Shown here: one piece after another, positions 42,073 to 52,700 of the stretch | How the letters are laid out: every line of letters starts with the position of its first letter | Position numbering within the stretch: position 1 is the first letter of the stretch | Assembly: GCF_022808915.1 (NCBI RefSeq) | Contig: NZ_JAKZFS010000001.1 | Location: forward strand, 698,644-762,643 | Length of the DNA stretch: 64,000 nt | DNA from: Fundidesulfovibrio terrae | Lineage (GTDB): Bacteria > Desulfobacterota > Desulfovibrionia > Desulfovibrionales > Desulfovibrionaceae | Direction: 5' to 3' | The notes under the pieces: model-generated | What the model was told of the DNA's origin: nothing | The model's database searches: none | What the model saw: only the letters and a program-made list of their open reading frames with translations | Program-made: the position numbers and the translations under genes

Positions 42073-43596
42073 ATGTCTTTTAATGGGGGAGTGCTCGTGG
42101 ACGATTCCGTGCAGAACAGCCGTGTACCGGCTGTCGTCTTATTTGAGGAAGCCCTCGCGCCTCCGGAATCCCTCGCCGCCGGGATCGACCTGGAGGAACT
42201 CAAGGCTCGGGGCTGGACGCCTCTGCGCAAGGAAGGCGGCTGGGCCTGGGTTGCCACCTGCCGTGAAGATTCCGCCCAGGTCATCCGCGAAGCCGCGGAA
42301 CTGCTCAAGGTGGGCAGCGTCTCCCTCTCCAAGGCCGATGAAGCCACTGTCCGGCGTTTTATCGAACACGCCCAGGACGTGAACCCCGGCTTTCCCCCTG
42401 TCGCTGGGCGCACCAGCTTGGCCCGGACCAGGACCTTCCTGGCCGCGGTCCGCTCCCAGCTCTCCAGTTACCGCAGCCTGCTCAGCAAGGGCCGCACCGG
42501 CCTGGCCATGCTGCGCACCGGCCTGGCCCTGATCACGGTTTCCCTGGTGCTCGTGAAGGTGTTCGGTACCGGCCTGGCCCTGATCCCGGAGGCCGTCCTG
42601 GCGGTCTGCGGGGGCATCCTGGTCGTGGACGGCCTCATCTGGTACATCCCGGCCCGCCGCCTGGCCCGCCGCAGGCCGTTGAGGGCTCCTGCCCCGCCCG
42701 GGCCGGACATCACCGTTCCCGTCGCCCGGCTCGAAGATGAGCGCATCGCCATTACGCGCACTCCGCCGGTCCCGGGCGCGGGCGGATGGGTCAAGGACTG
42801 CGAGCGCCACTCGCCGGTGATGCGCAGGCGTTTTTTGGCCCTGGAACGCACCGAACTGGCCATGGAGAGGACCCGGCAAGCCTATTTCCGCACCGTCATG
42901 TCCAAGTCCCGCACGGGCATGGCCCTGGTGCGTACAGGCATTTCCCTCTGCGGCCTGGGCATCGCCTTCCTGAGAAGGCTGCACGCGCAGCCGGCCGACG
43001 CGGCGGGGCTCTTTCTGATGGCGGTGGGAGTGGTCCTCACGCTGGAAGGCTTGAGCTGGTATCTGGCCGGGCACGGAGCGGGGAAGACCAGCCTGGACGA
43101 GGCGGAGAGGGCCGGGGAAAAGGGCGGCGCGTGGGGGATGCTCCTGCCGCCCGCGCACGAGGAGCACGACGACCGGCGCTACCGCTGCGTCCCGCTGGTC
43201 GCGCCCGGGTGCAGCCCCGGGATATGGGGGTCGACCGGGCTGGCCCTGGAAAGGACCCTCCTGGCCGAACGGCGCAATGTCATGTCCCGGTTCAGGACGA
43301 GCCTGGCGTGCTCGCGCACCGGGATGGCCTACGTGCGCACCGGCGTCAACTTCGTGGCCGTCGGCCTGGGCCTTCTCCTGACCGGCCCCGGGCACGGCCT
43401 GGCCTGGGTCGTGCTGGAAAGCGTCATCATGGCGGTAGGCGTCCTGCTGCTCGCCGACGGCCTCTACTGGCATCTTCCTGCCCGGCGGGATCGCTGGCAG
43501 CTTCCCTTCTGCGACTGCGAGATGGAAATCGCGGTGCCGGATTACTCCCTGCCCCCCGGGCAGTGGAAAACATTCGAGCTGGGCAATGACCGCTGA
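42073..43596 (+). CDS. membrane protein with three DUF202-like RT-ladder modules
   Basis: The 507-residue protein has three tandem modules (about 113-197, 246-333, 388-472). Each starts with a ladder of heptads carrying Arg-Thr every seven residues, for example ALERTLLAERR then SRFRTSLACSRTGMAYVRTG, and ends with two or three membrane helices and a Trp-Tyr cap (GLIWYIPARR, GLSWYLAG, GLYWHLPARR). This extends the DUF202 pattern, which normally has only the last two heptads. The N-terminal 110 residues resemble half of an MshEN domain (inference). A ten-base overlap with the next gene and the kinase/regulator downstream suggest a signalling role. The exact family is not recognised. Confidence 0.72.
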   Translation: MSFNGGVLVDDSVQNSRVPAVVLFEEALAPPESLAAGIDLEELKARGWTPLRKEGGWAWVATCREDSAQVIREAAELLKVGSVSLSKADEATVRRFIEHAQDVNPGFPPVAGRTSLARTRTFLAAVRSQLSSYRSLLSKGRTGLAMLRTGLALITVSLVLVKVFGTGLALIPEAVLAVCGGILVVDGLIWYIPARRLARRRPLRAPAPPGPDITVPVARLEDERIAITRTPPVPGAGGWVKDCERHSPVMRRRFLALERTELAMERTRQAYFRTVMSKSRTGMALVRTGISLCGLGIAFLRRLHAQPADAAGLFLMAVGVVLTLEGLSWYLAGHGAGKTSLDEAERAGEKGGAWGMLLPPAHEEHDDRRYRCVPLVAPGCSPGIWGSTGLALERTLLAERRNVMSRFRTSLACSRTGMAYVRTGVNFVAVGLGLLLTGPGHGLAWVVLESVIMAVGVLLLADGLYWHLPARRDRWQLPFCDCEMEIAVPDYSLPPGQWKTFELGNDR

Positions 43597-44815
43597 CGCC
43601 GTGCTCTCTGAGGCGACGCGCCCCTACTCCCCGCTTGAGTCGCGCGGGCTTCTCTCCCGCCGGGACCTGGAAGCGGCGGACAAGGCCTGGCTCGCCGACG
43701 CCGTCCACCCCGAGGTGTTCTTCCGGCAGCGGCTCGGCCTGACCCGGGGGGATCTCCGCCAGGCCCTGGGCGAGTATTACAAGCTTCCCGTCCTGGCGTA
43801 CGACGAGCGCCTGCCGATCCCGGAGGATCTGGCCCGGCTGGCCTTCCAGGCCAAGGGGCCTGTTGCGGGGCACTGGTTCCCCGTCTGCCGCGAAAGGGAC
43901 ATGCTGACGTTCGCGGTGAGCGTGTTCGACGATCCGGAAACCATGCGCGAGATCGAAAGCCTCTTCCCCGGGCGGCCGAAGAAATACATGGCCTGCCTGC
44001 GCGAGGAGGTGGAATGGTTCGCCCAGGACTTCGCCATGCGCGACGCCAACGGCCCCGTCGGCGTCCAGCGGACGGCCATGGCCTTCTGGCGAAACACCAT
44101 GGCCCTGTGGCGCACCAAGCTGGCCTGCCAGAGGACGAACCTCGCGTACGGGCGCACCTGGCTCAACGTCATGCGGTGGAGCCTGGGACTGATCGGCATG
44201 GGCAACAGCCTGTTCCGGATGGGGCAGCCTGCCGCGATTCCCCTGCTCCCCTGGATCGCCGTGGCGGTTGGCCTCGGCCTGGGCGCCGTCAGCCTGTGGG
44301 CCTACGTCCGCCAGCGGCGGGCCTGGAAGCACACCTCCGACCAGAGCCTGGTCGAGGCCACCTCCGCCGTGCTGCACTTCCTGGAAGAGTACCATTTCCT
44401 CGATCTGCCGCGCCCCGCGGATCAGGACTCGAAGCAGACCATGCTCGGGCGCCTGGGGGATTGCCTGACGACCTATTCTTCCATAACCATGCCCAGGGGT
44501 GGGTACCGGGAGCGCATCACCCTGGCCCGGGAGCGCAACGTGCTGGCCGCCCAGCGGACCGTGCTGGCCTGTTACCGCACCCTGGCCGCGCGCGCCCGCA
44601 CCGGGCTGGCCTTTTTCCGCACCGGCGTGACCATCCTGAGCCTTGGCCTCGGCCTGCTCAGCTATTTCGGCTTGAGCGCCCAGAGCTCGCTGGATGTCCT
44701 GCTCATAGCGGCCGGCGTGGCGATGATCGCCGACGGAGCCGCCTGGTACTGGCCCGTTCGCAAGGAATATGCCGAAACCCCCCGCTGCATATGGTTCGAC
44801 CAAGATGACGATTAA
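43586..44815 (+). CDS. MshEN-like domain protein with two DUF202-like RT-ladder modules
   Basis: The 409-residue protein begins with an MshEN-like domain (about 20-148): QRLGLTRGDLRQALGEYYKL, then PIPEDLARLAF and LTFAVSVFDDPETM, as in N-termini of type II secretion ATPases that can bind cyclic di-GMP; binding here is untested. Two RT-ladder modules follow (about 160-246 and 308-392): WRTKLACQRTNLAYGRTWLN and QRTVLACYRTLAARARTGLA, each with membrane helices and a Trp-rich end (DGAAWYWPVR). It is a paralogue of the upstream protein. Its stop lies inside the start region of the kinase gene. Confidence 0.72.
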   Translation: MTADAVLSEATRPYSPLESRGLLSRRDLEAADKAWLADAVHPEVFFRQRLGLTRGDLRQALGEYYKLPVLAYDERLPIPEDLARLAFQAKGPVAGHWFPVCRERDMLTFAVSVFDDPETMREIESLFPGRPKKYMACLREEVEWFAQDFAMRDANGPVGVQRTAMAFWRNTMALWRTKLACQRTNLAYGRTWLNVMRWSLGLIGMGNSLFRMGQPAAIPLLPWIAVAVGLGLGAVSLWAYVRQRRAWKHTSDQSLVEATSAVLHFLEEYHFLDLPRPADQDSKQTMLGRLGDCLTTYSSITMPRGGYRERITLARERNVLAAQRTVLACYRTLAARARTGLAFFRTGVTILSLGLGLLSYFGLSAQSSLDVLLIAAGVAMIADGAAWYWPVRKEYAETPRCIWFDQDDD

Positions 44816-46217
44816 AAAGACGCTCATCCTGCACGGAGCCATCATCATCGGGCTCCTCGTCCTGACCGGGGTGTTCGCCGTCCGGGACGTGGGCAACCTG
44901 AGCGCCTCCAGCCGGTACATGGAGATACAGGAGCGGCTCAACTCGTCCTTCCTCGAGATGCGCCTTTCCGAGAAGAACTACTTCCTGTTCAAGGACGACC
45001 TCGCCATCGACGACATCCTGGTCATGGTCCAGGCCGCCGGCGAAACTCTGGACAGCCTCAACCAGGACATGGTCCGGGCCATCGGACTGCAGAAATACCA
45101 GGACCTGCGGCTCGCCCTGGGACAATACCGGCAACAGGTCGAACGCATCGCCACCGGCAAGAGCAGGGACGAGGCCTCGGAGAACATCCTCCGGGAGGCG
45201 GGCAGGCGGCTCATGGAGGTGTCCAACCGCCTCACCGAGGACGAGCGGACCAAGATCGGCGCTCTCATAACCAAGACCAAGCAGGGCATGCTCGCGTCCT
45301 TCCTCCTGATCCTGATCCTGGCCGTGTTCTTCACGCCGTTGATCTACCGCCGGATTCTCGCCTCCCTGAACAAGGTGAGCCAGCTGGCCATGGACATCTC
45401 CGAGGGCCGTTTCCGCAAGATCGACGGCCCTGTGTCCAGCGACGAACTGGGGGCCGTCATCAGGGCCATGAACACCATGTCGGAGCAACTGCGCCTGCGC
45501 GAGGACGAGCTCGTCCAATCCAGGAAGCTCAACTCCCTGGGCATCCTCACCGCCGGCGTGGCGCACGAGATCACCAACCCCCTCAACAACATCTCCATGA
45601 TCGCCCAGACATACGAGGCCGTGTACGACATCCTCCCCCGGGAGGAGCGTATCGGCTTCATGCGCAAGGTCACGGCGGAATGCGAGCGGATCCAGGCCAT
45701 CGTCATCAACCTCCTGGATTTCGCCAAGCCCAAGGTGGCCTCCTTCCTGTGCGGGGATGTGAACGATGTCGTCAGGCGGACGCTGCAGCTGGTCCGGAAC
45801 ATGCTCGACGTGTCGAACATCGAGGTCGTCCTGGACTTGGCCGAGGGCCTGCCGTGCGTGCGCATGGACGAACACCAGATCTGCCAGGTGTTCGTGAACA
45901 TCATCACCAACGCCATCCAGGCAATGTCCCCCGGGCAGACCCTGGCCATCAGGACCAAGCCTGCCCCGGGGTATGAGGGCGTCGTCATCGATTTCCAGGA
46001 TACGGGAAAGGGTATTCCTCCGGAAATACTGAGCAACATCTTCGATCCCTTCTTCTCCACCAAGGGGGTGGACGGGACCGGGCTCGGGCTTTCCGTCAGC
46101 TACGGGATCATCAAGAACCACCTTGGGACGATCACCGCGCAAAGCGAAGTGAACAAGGGAACCACCTTCGAAATTGTGCTTCCGGCCGCGAAACCGATGG
46201 AGGATGACGATGAGTAA
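44805..46217 (+). CDS. membrane sensor histidine kinase
   Basis: A 470-residue kinase with helices at about 8-26 and 163-181 bounding a periplasmic helical sensor domain, a HAMP region (about 182-235), a HisKA domain with phosphorylated His 254 (GVAHEITNPLNNI) and a HATPase domain (DTGKGIPPEI, GTGLGLSVSYGI). ATG 44805 is chosen because the signal helix begins there; it overlaps the previous gene by eleven bases. The response regulator overlaps its end by eight bases. The DUF202-like proteins upstream may supply or receive its signal. Confidence 0.9.
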   Translation: MTIKKTLILHGAIIIGLLVLTGVFAVRDVGNLSASSRYMEIQERLNSSFLEMRLSEKNYFLFKDDLAIDDILVMVQAAGETLDSLNQDMVRAIGLQKYQDLRLALGQYRQQVERIATGKSRDEASENILREAGRRLMEVSNRLTEDERTKIGALITKTKQGMLASFLLILILAVFFTPLIYRRILASLNKVSQLAMDISEGRFRKIDGPVSSDELGAVIRAMNTMSEQLRLREDELVQSRKLNSLGILTAGVAHEITNPLNNISMIAQTYEAVYDILPREERIGFMRKVTAECERIQAIVINLLDFAKPKVASFLCGDVNDVVRRTLQLVRNMLDVSNIEVVLDLAEGLPCVRMDEHQICQVFVNIITNAIQAMSPGQTLAIRTKPAPGYEGVVIDFQDTGKGIPPEILSNIFDPFFSTKGVDGTGLGLSVSYGIIKNHLGTITAQSEVNKGTTFEIVLPAAKPMEDDDE

Positions 46218-46590
46218 GCCGACGGTCATGGTTATCGACGACGAGAAAATCGTGGGGGACATGTCCAAGTACCATCTCGAGGCCGCCGGTTTCGAGGTCG
46301 AGACGTTCATCGACCCCGCCAAGGCGCTGGAGCGTTTCAAGGAGAAGCACTTCGACGTGGTGGTCACCGACCTGAAGATGAAGAATATCGACGGCATGGA
46401 GGTGCTCAAGGTCGTGAAGCAGGCCTCCCCCAGGACCCAGGTGATCATGATCACGGCCTTCGCGCACCTGAATACCGCCATCGAGGCCCTTCGCGGGCAG
46501 GTTTTCGACTTCTTCCCGAAACCGTTCAAGATCAAGGATTTCGTCGCGTCGGTGAGCCGGGCGCTCGAAAGCGTTCCGCCCGCCGCCTGA
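46210..46590 (+). CDS. single-domain response regulator
   Basis: A 126-residue receiver without an output domain. The acidic pocket is DDE at 10-12, the phosphorylated aspartate is D54 (VVVTDLKM), the threonine is in MITAFAH and the lysine in PKPFK. Such CheY-like regulators act through protein contacts. It overlaps the cognate kinase gene by eight bases and ends the operon. Its target may be one of the DUF202-like proteins, since no DNA-binding protein is encoded with it (inference). Confidence 0.9.
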   Translation: MSKPTVMVIDDEKIVGDMSKYHLEAAGFEVETFIDPAKALERFKEKHFDVVVTDLKMKNIDGMEVLKVVKQASPRTQVIMITAFAHLNTAIEALRGQVFDFFPKPFKIKDFVASVSRALESVPPAA

Positions 46591-46832: not shown

Positions 46833-47987
46833 ATGGCTGGAAAAATCCTGAATCCGGGTGCTTCCGACGCCCTCTGCAGCGTGGCTTCGGCCGGGGGCGG
46901 CGTGCTCGTGACCCTGTCGGGCACGTGGGACATGGGGGCCACCGTCCCGGGTGCGGCGGACGCGAAGCGCCTGCTCGCGGCCTCCCCCAAGCCCGGAGCG
47001 TTGCGCTTCGACTCGTCCGGCCTTGGCGCCTGGGACAGCCGGCTGCTGATCTTCTGCCGGTCGCTTCTGGCCCTGGCCCGGGCAAGCTCCGTTCCCGCCG
47101 ACCTGTCGGGCCTGCCCGAGGGGGCCCGCGCGCTCCTGGAGCTGGCGGAAAAGGTGCCCGAGCGCACGGGCGCGGCCTCCTCCAAGGCCCGCGAGCCGTT
47201 CCTGTCCCGGATCGGCGCCTGGTGCCTCGAAGCGTGGCACGGCATTCCCGACCTTCTCGAATTCGTCGGCGACGTCACCCTGGCCTGCGTGAACCTGGTG
47301 CGGGGCAGGGCGGTGTTCCAAGCCTCGGGGCTTACGCTCCTCATGCGCCAGGTCGGCGTGGACGCCCTGCCCATCGTCTCGCTCATCAGCCTTCTCGTGG
47401 GCCTGATCCTGGCCTTCGTGGCCTCCATCCAGCTGCTTCAGTTCGGGGCCCAGATATACGTCTCCACCATCGTGGGCATCTCCATGATCCGGGTCATGGG
47501 AGCCATCATGACCGGCATCATCATGGCCGGCCGCACCGGGGCCGCCTTCGCCGCCGAGCTCGGCACCATGCAGGTCAACGAGGAGATCGACGCCCTGCGC
47601 ACCTTCGGCTTCTCCCCGGCTGAGTTCCTGGTGATGCCGCGCATGCTGGCGCTGGTGCTGATGATGCCTCTTCTGTGCGTCTACGCCGACCTCATGGGCG
47701 TGCTGGGCGGATTCGTCGTGGGCGTGGCCATGCTCGGCATCAACCCCGAGCTGTACCTGTCCCAGACCTTCCACTCCATCCCCTTGGCCAACTTCTGGAT
47801 CGGGCTGACCCACAGCATGGTGTTCGGCGTGCTGGTGGCCCTGGCCGGGTGCTACCGGGGCATGCGCTGCGGACGCAGCGCCATGGGCGTGGGCCAGGCC
47901 ACGACTTCCGCCGTGGTCACGGGCATCCTCAGCATCGTGGTGGCCACGGCCGTGCTCACCTGGCTGTGCAACATTCTGGGCATCTGA
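46833..47987 (+). CDS. mlaE: MlaE-family lipid ABC transporter permease with N-terminal STAS-like domain
   Basis: A 384-residue permease. Residues 135-384 match MlaE: five or six helices with SLISLLVGLILAFVASIQL and the loop GRTGAAFAAELGTMQVNEEI. The first 130 residues are soluble and resemble a STAS domain (LVTLSGTWDM, RFDSSGLGAWDS), in MlaB position. In E. coli the STAS protein MlaB is separate; here it is fused to the permease. The next genes encode ATPase, MCE protein and lipoprotein, so it belongs to an inner-membrane phospholipid transport complex. Confidence 0.88.
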   Translation: MAGKILNPGASDALCSVASAGGGVLVTLSGTWDMGATVPGAADAKRLLAASPKPGALRFDSSGLGAWDSRLLIFCRSLLALARASSVPADLSGLPEGARALLELAEKVPERTGAASSKAREPFLSRIGAWCLEAWHGIPDLLEFVGDVTLACVNLVRGRAVFQASGLTLLMRQVGVDALPIVSLISLLVGLILAFVASIQLLQFGAQIYVSTIVGISMIRVMGAIMTGIIMAGRTGAAFAAELGTMQVNEEIDALRTFGFSPAEFLVMPRMLALVLMMPLLCVYADLMGVLGGFVVGVAMLGINPELYLSQTFHSIPLANFWIGLTHSMVFGVLVALAGCYRGMRCGRSAMGVGQATTSAVVTGILSIVVATAVLTWLCNILGI

Positions 47988-47994
47988 GGCGGGC

Positions 47995-48768
47995 ATGACG
48001 GAGCAGACCACGCAAACACCCCGGCCGGGCATCGTCGTGAAGGACCTGACCATGGCCTATGGGGACTTCGTGCTCATGCGCGGCCTCAACTTCACGGTGA
48101 ACCGGGGGGACGTGTTCATCATCATGGGCGGCAGCGGCTGCGGCAAGAGCACCCTGCTACGCGTGCTGGTGGGCCTCAAGGAGCCTGCCCAGGGCAAGGT
48201 GCTCTACGGGGGGGACGAAAGCCTCTGGGACGCGGACGAGGCGGCCAGGACGCGCATCCTTCGCCGCACCGGGCTTCTTTTCCAGAGCGGCGCGCTCTTC
48301 AGCTCCATGACCCTGGCCGAGAACATCGCCCTGCCGCTCAAGCAGTACACCAGGCTCTCCGACGCCGAAATACGCGACATGGCCTCGTTCAAGCTGGCCC
48401 TGGTGGGGCTGGCCGGATTCGAGAACTACTATCCTTCCCAGATCAGCGGCGGCATGTGCAAGCGGGCCGGGCTGGCCAGGGCCATGGCCCTGGACCCGGA
48501 CATCCTCTTCTTCGACGAGCCCTCGGCAGGGCTCGACCCGGTGAGTGCCCGCCTGCTGGACGACCTGATCCTGGAACTGCGCGACAGCCTTCAGGCCACC
48601 TTCGTGGTGGTCACCCACGAGTTGGCCAGCATCTTCGCCATCGGCAGCAATTCCGTGTTTCTCGACGTGGGCACCCGCACCATGACCGCCAGCGGTAACC
48701 CCACGCATCTTCTTGAAACATCTCAAGATCCAGCCCTGCGCCACTTCCTGACCAGGGGCGAGGAGTAG
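47995..48768 (+). CDS. mlaF: MlaF-family ABC ATPase
   Basis: The 257-residue ATPase has Walker A GGSGCGKST, the signature ISGGMCKRAGLARA typical of MlaF, Walker B ILFFDEPSAGLDP and switch histidine VVTHE. It powers the MlaE permease encoded seven bases upstream. The transport direction of such systems is debated; phospholipid movement between outer and inner membranes is the known role. Confidence 0.9.
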   Translation: MTEQTTQTPRPGIVVKDLTMAYGDFVLMRGLNFTVNRGDVFIIMGGSGCGKSTLLRVLVGLKEPAQGKVLYGGDESLWDADEAARTRILRRTGLLFQSGALFSSMTLAENIALPLKQYTRLSDAEIRDMASFKLALVGLAGFENYYPSQISGGMCKRAGLARAMALDPDILFFDEPSAGLDPVSARLLDDLILELRDSLQATFVVVTHELASIFAIGSNSVFLDVGTRTMTASGNPTHLLETSQDPALRHFLTRGEE

Positions 48769-48819
48769 GGCCATGCCAAGCAACCGCACGTGCAGACGCA
48801 CACAAGAGGAGCTCCGGTC

Positions 48820-49827
48820 GTGAGCGCGAAATCGAACAAAACCATGATCGGCCTGTTCGTGCTGGGCGCGGCGCTTCTGGCTGTCGCGGCCATGGCCGCA
48901 TTCGGCTCGGGCATGTTCTTCACCAAGAAGATGACGGCCATCATGTTCTTCGACGGGTCCGTGTCCGGGCTCGAAGTGGGGTCTCCGGTCATCTTCCGGG
49001 GGGTCCCGCTGGGCTCGGTCAAGGACGTGCGCATCGAGGCCGATCCCACCGGGCTCAAGTTCGCCATCCCCGTGGTTGTCGAGATCGTGGGCGGCAAGGT
49101 GAACCTGCAGAAGGCAGGAGCGGCGGAAGGGGAAACGCTTCTCGAGGCGCGCAAGCAGAGCCCGAAGGCACTCGTGCAGGCCCTGATCGACAAGGGCCTG
49201 CGCGCACAGCTCGTGACCCAGAGCTTCGTCACCGGCCAGCTGGCCGTGTCCCTGGACATGCGCCCGGACACGCCGGTCAGGCTGCACGGCGACGGCGACG
49301 ACCTGGAAATACCCACCATCCCCTCTGAATTCGAGAAGCTGACCCAGACCTTGAAGTCGCTCCCCCTGGAGGAATTGGTGGCCCACCTGTTGAGCGCGGT
49401 CAACGGCGTGGAGCGCCTGGTCAACTCGCCCGAGACGGCCAAGATTCCCGCCAAGATCGACACCGCCCTGACCTCCGGGACGCAGCTGGTGGACGACCTG
49501 CGGGGCAGGGTGGACGGGCTGGCCAAGAACCTGGAACAGGCCGTGCGCAGCTACAACGAGCTGGCCGTGAACCTGGACCAGCGCACCGACAAGCTGACCG
49601 CCTCCACGCGCAAGACCCTGGACTCCCTGGACGGGGCCGTGGCCGACGGCAAGAGCGCCCTGACCAAGTTCCAGAAGGTGGTCAGCCCGGATGCCGCCAC
49701 CGTGGTGGAACTGAACCGCGCCCTGGCCGAGATCGCCCAGGCCGCCAAGGCCATCAGGGGCCTGGCGGATTATCTTGAGCGCCACCCCGAAGCCCTCATC
49801 CAGGGCAAGGGCGGCAACAGGAGATAG
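48820..49827 (+). CDS. mlaD: MlaD-like MCE-domain lipid-binding protein
   Basis: A 335-residue protein with one N-terminal helix (about 10-32), an MCE domain (about 40-150: DGSVSGLEVGSPVIFRGVPL and GLRAQLVTQSFVTGQ) and a long helical C-terminal region. It should form the periplasmic hexameric lipid channel on top of MlaE. GTG 48820 is chosen because GAGGAG precedes it; an upstream ATG at 48790 would add residues with no ribosome site. It is longer than E. coli MlaD, as is common outside Enterobacteria. Confidence 0.88.
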   Translation: MSAKSNKTMIGLFVLGAALLAVAAMAAFGSGMFFTKKMTAIMFFDGSVSGLEVGSPVIFRGVPLGSVKDVRIEADPTGLKFAIPVVVEIVGGKVNLQKAGAAEGETLLEARKQSPKALVQALIDKGLRAQLVTQSFVTGQLAVSLDMRPDTPVRLHGDGDDLEIPTIPSEFEKLTQTLKSLPLEELVAHLLSAVNGVERLVNSPETAKIPAKIDTALTSGTQLVDDLRGRVDGLAKNLEQAVRSYNELAVNLDQRTDKLTASTRKTLDSLDGAVADGKSALTKFQKVVSPDAATVVELNRALAEIAQAAKAIRGLADYLERHPEALIQGKGGNRR

Positions 49828-49830
49828 ACC

Positions 49831-50436
49831 ATGCACCGCAAAGCACAGTTTTCCGTGACCCTCCTGGCCTGCCTGGCCCTCATGCTTCCCCTGCTGGGCG
49901 CGTGCGGCAAGAGCGCCCCGACCCGCTTCTACTCCCTGGCCGCCGAGGCCCCGGAGCCTGAGCAGAAACCGGCCGGTCCCTGCTACAGCCTGGGCATCGG
50001 GCCGGTGGACACCCCCGCCTACCTGGACCGCACCCAGATCGTGACCCGTGGCGAGGGCAACCGCATGCTCCTGGCCGAGTTCGACCAGTGGATCGAGCCG
50101 GTCCAGGCCAACTTCTCCCGCGCCCTCACCGACGCGCTCTCGCGCATGGTCTGCGCCCGGCCGGTCATGGGCTACCCCTGGCCGGGCGGCGTGCGGCCGG
50201 ACTACCAGGTGGCCGTGCAGGTACGCACCTTCGACGGTTCCCTGGGCAAGGACGCGCTCCTGCACGCGGACTGGTCCATCGCCGACAAGGACGGTCGCGT
50301 GCTCGCCTGGAAGAGCTCCGTGCTGCGCGAGCCCTGCGCGGGCATCGACCACGCGGCCCTGGTGGCCGCCCAGGGCCGACTGGTTGACCGCTTCGCCAAG
50401 GAAGTGGCCGCTGCGCTCTCCTCGATTGCCCGGTAG
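49831..50436 (+). CDS. PqiC-like ABC transport auxiliary lipoprotein
   Basis: A 201-residue lipoprotein: lipobox LLGAC with Cys about 25, then the family opening RFYSLAAEAP and LGIGPVDTPAYLDRTQIV, as in PqiC/YmbA proteins that link MCE systems with the outer membrane. It follows the MCE gene by three bases. The domain has a central beta-sheet and two cysteines (VCARP, EPCAG) that could pair. Confidence 0.82.
   Translation: MHRKAQFSVTLLACLALMLPLLGACGKSAPTRFYSLAAEAPEPEQKPAGPCYSLGIGPVDTPAYLDRTQIVTRGEGNRMLLAEFDQWIEPVQANFSRALTDALSRMVCARPVMGYPWPGGVRPDYQVAVQVRTFDGSLGKDALLHADWSIADKDGRVLAWKSSVLREPCAGIDHAALVAAQGRLVDRFAKEVAAALSSIAR

Positions 50437-50558: not shown

Positions 50559-52700
<2,142 letters not shown>

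Follow-up and report, generated by a model that had tools for sequence, protein, structure and literature searches.

A group of four mutually overlapping plus-strand genes was analysed in a window of 64,000 nucleotides, the whole stretch from position 698,644 to 762,643 of contig 1 of the 3.9-Mb genome of Fundidesulfovibrio terrae. The first two genes, here called A and B, encode paralogous proteins with five DUF202 modules in total, in each of which a ladder of regularly spaced arginines leads into a predicted membrane hairpin; the other two encode a histidine kinase and a stand-alone receiver. By analogy with the eukaryotic VTC complex, A and B may build a five-module ring that is lined by arginine, conducts anions or polyanions and is controlled by the receiver, a possibility to which we give slightly less than an even chance.

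Arginine ladders in DUF202 modules

A rung was defined as R followed by T, S or N, with a spacing of exactly seven residues between rungs. Counted on the sequence, A and B together carry 26 rungs in five ladders. Protein A contains 15 RT dipeptides with eight pairs spaced exactly seven residues apart, and B contains eight with five such pairs. The longest runs, six rungs in A and five in B, were reached in none of 20,000 residue shuffles of each protein (shuffled maxima 3 and 4), and the RT counts and seven-spaced pairs were likewise unmatched, which rules out a chance repeat as the origin of the ladders. Both proteins exceed the gathering cut-off of DUF202 (PF02656) when searched as whole proteins in Pfam (49.1 bits for A and 26.1 for B, against 23.4), while NCBIfam gave no match for either up to E 0.01. 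Elsewhere in the genome no DUF202 protein lies above the cut-off; one further match, of 11.4 bits, falls below it. An earlier interpretation of this DNA, made from the letters alone and called here the sequence-only reading, had reported Arg-Thr at every seventh residue in five modules and had named DUF202 as their family, and both statements hold.

It had also treated the five modules as alignable copies of one another. An alignment of 67 modules (the five of the window and 62 of 118 others) agrees with this, Arg being invariant at four rung positions. Over 644 heptads from 59 A and B proteins the consensus is R-[TSN]-x-[LM]-A-x-x, with Ala at position five in 93% and Leu or Met at position four in 84% of cases and three variable positions; the heptads were picked by their first two positions only, so that the Ala and Leu/Met positions played no part in the picking. 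The conserved positions form one helix face, with Arg and Ala in the centre and Leu and Thr on the flanks. Such a face is what a helix turned with its arginines towards the inside of a ring would need.

Gene organization and conservation of the gene set

The sequence-only reading had described two paralogues whose genes overlap each other, a histidine kinase and a CheY-like regulator, and the coordinates (Table 1) together with the Pfam domains bear this out. HisKA and HATPase_c of the kinase and the receiver domain all score above their Pfam cut-offs. By domain content the kinase and the receiver are a two-component system, and phosphotransfer between them is predicted. The kinase starts at 44769 or at an inner ATG near 44805, and its sensor region gives a weak HBM match under the Pfam cut-off; Pfam revealed no output domain in the receiver. 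A kinase with HisKA and HATPase_c and a stand-alone receiver are also found in other CheY-like systems, from which the present one would differ in its target, a membrane ladder assembly instead of the flagellar motor or DNA.

Table 1. Positions of the genes, domains and modules of the window and of receiver-ladder fusions at other loci
Feature	Position	Strand	Description
Gene A	42073..43596	+	507 residues; MshEN-like domain and three ladder/DUF202 modules
MshEN-like domain of A	42142..42378	+	Residues 24-102; Pfam 17.8 bits, under the cut-off of 23.1
Module A1	42409..42666	+	Six rungs (R113, 120, 127, 134, 141, 148) within one helix, 113-164, then helix 170-198
Module A2	42814..43119	+	Five rungs (R259-R287); helices 248-302 and 306-349
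Module A3	43234..43500	+	Five rungs (R394-R422); helices 388-437 and 443-476
Gene B	43586..44815	+	409 residues; MshEN-like domain and two modules; overlaps A by 11 bases
Full MshEN-like domain of B	43619..44035	+	Residues 12-150; Pfam 16.6 bits, under the cut-off of 23.1
Module B1	44063..44326	+	Five rungs (R162-R190); helices 160-212 and 221-247
Module B2	44510..44764	+	Five rungs (R317-R345); helices 309-361 and 367-393
Histidine kinase gene	44769..46217	+	Two membrane helices with a sensor region between them; HAMP, HisKA and HATPase_c; shares bases with both neighbours, gene B and the receiver gene
Receiver gene	46204..46590	+	CheY-like, stand-alone; overlaps the kinase gene
Receiver-ladder fusions	L148:5726-6778, L149:2645-3697, L150:5936-6970		12-rung DUF202 protein with a receiver behind two membrane helices

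Co-occurrence was followed by tblastn at 39 other loci, the number left after removal of three duplicates and a fragment. They represent 38 genomes, as L070 and L162 are contig ends of a single one; matches in genomes G251 and G291 lie outside this set. The order A-B-kinase-receiver is present at 34 of the 39 loci, so the four-gene set does recur in other genomes as had been supposed. The five exceptions are L062, L070 and L162, cut at contig ends, L081, with no kinase in the remaining 1.5 kb, and L050, which has a shorter B. Modules A1-A2-A3-B1-B2 follow each other in this order at 36 loci, the others being L050 with four modules and the cut pieces L070 and L162; among the 36 are L073, where the frame of B2 is broken, L160, whose B is interrupted by an in-frame stop, and L158, with an extra single-module gene. 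The module labels come from a query set that overlaps the same loci and therefore lean on the positions in a tree, while the number of modules is independent of it.

In this tree of 158 modules, A2, A3, B1 and B2 each form a single starred branch and A1 requires two changes. The five positions and eight single-module proteins make six groups with five changes, the minimum possible, and the single-module group has a support of 93/94 (80 columns, bootstrap not settled). The tree excludes L078, L079 and L082, all duplicates and the broken B of L073, and its B modules come from 21 loci against 36 for A. The positions are separate in the tree, and therefore the modules most likely diverged once and then stayed together across phyla, the 3+2 layout being old and fixed.

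Among GTDB species genomes A was found at 29 loci (28 covering most of A and one fragment), titled Desulfobulbus, Humidesulfovibrio, Solidesulfovibrio alcoholivorans DSM 5433, Syntrophobacterales, Desulfobacterales, Desulfocapsaceae, Nitrospirae, 'Deltaproteobacteria' and others. Most of these are metagenome-assembled genomes (MAGs), S. alcoholivorans DSM 5433 being the one named strain, and the gene set spans Thermodesulfobacteriota, Nitrospirota and other 'delta' MAGs. Among relatives of the window's genome, A matched in four of 59 (own genome counted), G011 being the one other genome in which the match covers most of A, and in none of the six other members of the genus. B matched in 23 of 150 genomes of the order (own counted): the match spans 333 or more of the 409 residues in five others, is in pieces in G011, and takes in one part only in 16. 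In the phylum it is nearly full length in nine of 395, one of them (G597) with an internal stop codon. The nearest relatives are two MAGs, one named Desulfobulbus, with 60-66% identity for A and B and 63-65% for the kinase; members of the own family are lower, at about 42-52%. Because the closest relatives lie outside the family and the genus lacks the set, the pattern of sequence matches points to acquisition by horizontal transfer. Carriage on plasmids was rejected, as B had no match in 72,556 plasmid records.

Structure prediction and relation to VTC

AlphaFold2 models were computed from family alignments. The model of A (29 rows; predicted local distance difference test, pLDDT, 77.8; predicted template modelling score, pTM, 0.74) contains three long helices, each followed by a second one, and that of B (17 rows; pLDDT 80.0, pTM 0.59) contains the same helix pair twice. 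Every module was modelled as a hairpin of two membrane helices with both ends on one side. This side is probably the cytoplasm, because in other genomes a receiver is fused at the C-terminal end. A rough hydropathy scan gave helix pairs for A1, A2, A3 and B2 and one helix only for B1; for the ordinary DUF202 protein of locus L054 it likewise gave just two distinct helices.

To our knowledge, the eukaryotic VTC channel is the sole mechanistic model for DUF202. Against PF02656, a stretch of 58 Vtc1 residues reaches 60.5 bits, and a nine-row module profile, to which three DUF202 proteins of the ordinary kind and a single-ladder protein contribute, has Vtc1 chains as its best PDB matches (E 0.0014-0.0022). 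Direct comparison of the A/B-module profile with the Vtc1 stretch by hhalign gave E 0.003 with a probability of only 10.5, and placed the fifth rung of A1, 'RTGLA', on R31-T32. In the available part of its text, PMC9911596 describes five TM1 helices lining the VTC channel, a ratio of 3:1:1 for Vtc1:Vtc3:Vtc4, and lumen residues seven apart, among them K24/R31 in Vtc1 and K622/R629 in Vtc4.

VTC (Vtc1/Vtc3/Vtc4), which polymerises and translocates polyphosphate in yeast, and the present proteins have in common the DUF202 membrane family, five such domains per complex against five modules here, and a spacing of seven between basic residues of the first membrane helix, which align in register with the ladder. 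By homology with Vtc1, the rung arginines would face the lumen, and the ladder would extend a VTC-type channel lining towards the cytoplasm. VTC differs in being eukaryotic and in carrying SPX and TTM domains where A and B have MshEN-like ones; a Pfam search of A and B up to E 1 returned neither SPX nor the TTM polymerase. As far as the available VTC text goes, it also differs in being controlled by inositol pyrophosphate and not by a two-component system, and in consisting of five chains against two here. VTC chains are absent among the fold-search matches listed, which proves nothing.

Ordinary bacterial DUF202 proteins, such as YidH (which we take to be a DUF202 protein), share the Pfam family and short ladders, with four rungs each at L054, L055 and L056. 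They differ in having a single module within 122-151 residues, and no kinase or receiver of the window's type was found beside these three. In the accessible portions of the respective papers, yidH of E. coli is linked to altered NADPH, iron and peroxide phenotypes (PMC4054840), and YidH appears as a candidate for D-alanine export with no measured effect (PMC10299036).

MshEN-like domains

Family profiles and models show an MshEN-type fold in both A and B. The sequence-only reading had placed an MshEN-like start in one of the two proteins: the fold itself is present, its restriction to one protein is not. The A-family profile matched PilF at E 1.4e-5 (whole three-copy chain) and 2.6e-4 (one-copy fragment), and the B-family profile matched the three-copy PilF chain at E 7e-15, the one-copy 9g1w (PilB) at 2.9e-7 and MshE at 3.4e-5. 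In structure searches the model of A matched XpsE, PilF and PilB with a Foldseek probability of 1.00 (E 0.2-0.4 and 64-86 columns in the rows shown, nothing under E 0.001) and XpsE 2d28 in VIA-align with Z 8.8 over 84 residues. The model of B aligned with MshE 5htl at Z 13.4 (root-mean-square deviation 3.4, 137 residues aligned), the fold being the one found in the PilB, MshE and XpsE ATPases. From these ATPases A and B differ by having no ATPase domain and by the loss of residues of the cyclic di-GMP motif, and A matches mainly the second half of the domain.

The cyclic di-GMP motif of MshEN comprises two 24-residue stretches, RLGxx..G..L..L..Q, according to the part of PMC5013675 at hand. 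A search with the strict or the relaxed motif found it in none of the 29 A rows and none of the 17 B rows; a control of 21 related ATPase loci also gave 0/21, the pattern having been checked on a made-up positive only. With the motif columns placed by hand on the window's B, Gly-3 and Gln-24 are missing from both halves in all 16 B rows with residues there, one further row being gapped. The first Arg is retained in four B rows in motif I (window included) and in one in motif II, the second-position Leu in no B row in motif I and in five in motif II, and the inner Leu positions are largely kept. Since the key Gly and Gln are lost, the suggestion of a potential cyclic di-GMP domain finds no support, and control by cyclic di-GMP was rejected for the A and B rows. 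The MshEN-like domains probably act as protein-contact domains.

Receiver fusions and the proposed mechanism

At three loci a single protein holds both ladder and receiver (Table 1). The fused domains match Pfam with E values of 2e-23 (L148), 3e-19 (L149) and 1e-21 (L150); by eye, that of L149 has Asn at the likely phosphoacceptor. These fusions are the best evidence from which we infer direct control by the receiver.

In the mechanism that we propose, the five DUF202 modules A1-A2-A3-B1-B2, no two of them identical, would come together in a single membrane assembly with a layout like that of the five VTC domains. In each module, one long helix would bear the rungs and continue as the first membrane helix. 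The five rung helices would bundle, and their arginines with the Thr, Ser or Asn neighbours would line a central anion or polyanion path leading from the cytoplasm into the membrane, the cytoplasmic mouth of which may be capped by the MshEN-like domains for protein contact or gating. The kinase would sense a periplasmic or membrane cue and phosphorylate the receiver, and the receiver would open, close or load the assembly by direct contact, not through transcription. Ring assembly, conduction and gating are thus all putative.

Several observations weigh against this conducting ring. A profile built solely from the 67 A/B modules recovered no VTC chain from the PDB up to E 10, and therefore the VTC link runs through the Pfam family. 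VTC subunits have three membrane helices each, in the available text, where two are predicted for the A and B modules, and Pfam matched no polymerase domain in A or B. The single chains of A and B were modelled with pTM 0.74 and 0.59, and fold searches with the helical parts gave nothing beyond the tool's common range for helical bundles, the best rows, designed repeats for A (Z 11.0) and syntaxin-type bundles for B (Z 11.5), both falling within it. Locus L050 (genome G011; L050:7650-8400) has four modules, B1 being missing, and is the sole exception to the 3+2 layout without a contig-end cut. In a sample of 16 single-module proteins with long ladders, five (L152, L153, L205, L207 and the extra gene of L158) had no kinase or receiver gene of this kind found directly beside them. 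Finally, 16 of 17 carrier genomes lack PPK1 and just as many lack PPK2, a single genome being the exception in both cases; G251 and G291 were assigned to these carriers by sequence matches alone, and several of the genomes are incomplete. Polyphosphate made by PPK1 or PPK2 is weakened as a cargo by these absences, which amount to no special exclusion given that PPK1 is uncommon in the phylum sample (41 of 395).

Alternatively, A and B could be membrane co-sensors or scaffolds for the kinase and receiver that conduct nothing, the ladder being a signalling coiled coil that relays conformational change between the membrane and the MshEN-like domains. The tight operon with the kinase would suit such a role, as would the protein contacts made by the MshEN domains of pilus and secretion ATPases (a PilB-PilZ complex is among the fold matches) and, in Pfam, the lack of a transporter energy domain in the four genes. 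However, a signalling coiled coil would not need Arg at every heptad, and the rung pattern holds for 21-37 heptads at L052, L053, L202-L204 and L206 despite differing DNA units. At L148-L150, moreover, receiver and ladder sit on one polypeptide, and the ladder accordingly looks like the target of the signal. We regard this explanation as somewhat unlikely.

Long single-module ladders

Among the 16 single-module proteins, five (L052, L053, L202, L203 and L204), with longest ladders of 35, 22, 21, 28 and 37 rungs, respectively, have genes related to the window's kinase and receiver immediately after them. L206 (29 rungs) is followed by a kinase only, and L051 by broken kinase pieces. The longest forms, L204:3287-4393 and L052:5985-7088, are single DUF202 proteins with 37 and 35 unbroken Arg-Thr/Ser/Asn heptads of the type 'RTELANK'; if straight, such a ladder helix could measure about 37-39 nm. 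In eight long-ladder genes the DNA units share on average 46-63% of their bases and most are distinct, so that recent expansion of a DNA repeat was rejected as the sole cause of the length. Some copying of units is likely, because identical peptide units share 78-95% of their bases in the seven long-ladder genes that have such units.

These lengths bear on a further explanation, in which the ladder is a membrane-tethered binder of polyanions (polyphosphate, nucleic acid or acidic lipid head groups) without a pore, and its long forms are tethers of tens of nanometres. The 35 and 37 consecutive rungs of L052 and L204, about 245-259 helical residues, would exceed the need of a gate, and the A and B ladders hold 1136 basic against 199 acidic residues. 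The ladders of 13 single-module proteins (three ordinary short DUF202 proteins among them), however, hold 158 acidic to 292 basic residues, with Glu at 29% at two variable positions, and are no simple cationic ropes; the Ala, Leu and Thr positions also favour helix packing. A tether of this kind appears decidedly unlikely to us.

Two further single-module genes were observed in other surroundings. The 17-rung ladder protein of L151 (L151:5280-7834) lies close before a receiver-SpoIIE phosphatase, a neighbourhood that hints at partner-switching control. A 12-rung single ladder gene (L158:11672-12394) lies about 1.5 kb from the A/B set of the same genome, on the opposite strand.

PPDK-like neighbours and the question of cargo

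A protein of 854-855 residues with PPDK_N and a PEP-utiliser (phosphoenolpyruvate-utiliser) mobile domain is encoded directly 3' of the receiver-ladder fusion at all three fusion loci (Pfam was run on that of L148). At the A/B loci a PPDK-like gene occurs in the available flank, short in many cases, at 17 of 39, and at 11 of these right after the receiver. The genome of the window has nine PPDK-like matches spread over some eight sites in 3.9 Mb, and by a rough estimate from this one genome about one in 39 loci would be expected by chance. In the same flanks TauE was found at 12 loci, Alph_Pro_TM at 11 and a Usp protein at six. The genome of the window has its TauE-Alph_Pro_TM-PPDK-like cluster on another contig.

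It could be supposed that the system is a true bacterial polyphosphate translocator and that the neighbouring PPDK_N/mobile-domain protein is an unrecognised polymerase or phosphate donor. DUF202 being the membrane domain of VTC, and the frequent adjacency just described, would agree with this. We know of no polymerase activity of this PPDK-like protein. Its best NCBIfam match is phosphoenolpyruvate synthase, far under the cut-off, 22 of the 39 loci have no such gene in the available flank, and those of its relatives that the window's genome encodes are found on other contigs or at a great distance on the same one. We consider the translocator highly improbable.

A wider form of the conducting-ring proposal would see in the system a prokaryotic equivalent of VTC: a channel of five domains with arginine rungs, divided 3+2 over two proteins, opened or loaded by contact with the phosphorylated receiver and fed by the PPDK-like phosphotransferase that often adjoins it, with polyanion flux as output, mostly in genomes without known polyphosphate kinases. 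Taken as a whole this is unlikely in our estimate. Polyphosphate is the cargo that suggests itself first. Granules that stain as polyphosphate are formed by a Desulfovibrio relative, according to the available part of PMC5193443. The accessible text of a paper on algal polyphosphate polymerases (PMC12526157) adds nothing on bacteria with DUF202.

As a separate observation, the PPDK_N and mobile-domain protein of about 855 residues (L064:8575-11133 and relatives; in the window's genome on C2 at about 476-484 kb, locus L171) has a C-terminal third without a Pfam match, and it recurs with TauE, Alph_Pro_TM, Usp and a receiver. Nearly all of the terms tried for a TauE/Usp/PEP-synthase neighbourhood returned nothing in the literature.

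Novelty and further genes of the window

The sequence-only reading knew of no described system of this composition, and the literature searched agrees: no published description of the ladders, of multi-module DUF202 proteins or of a link between DUF202 and two-component systems was found by titles and abstract starts, with subscription journals scarcely covered. The coupling of DUF202 membrane proteins to a two-component system would be new in category only if receiver-controlled conduction is true. DUF202 is a widespread family, and here its tie to a phosphorelay shows in the order of the genes and, in three genomes, in their fusion. The fixed five-module layout and the repeating Arg pattern give a testable prediction for the role of bacterial DUF202 and may add a novel type of output to two-component systems. 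Ladders that run on for as many as 37 heptads without interruption are in themselves a striking protein pattern, for which the titles and abstract starts searched gave no description.

Directly after the receiver gene, at 46833-50436, the window carries a lipid transport operon with an MlaE permease gene and with genes that by look are of MlaF and MlaD type and for a lipoprotein. This operon is followed by a hybrid kinase-receiver at 50559-52700.

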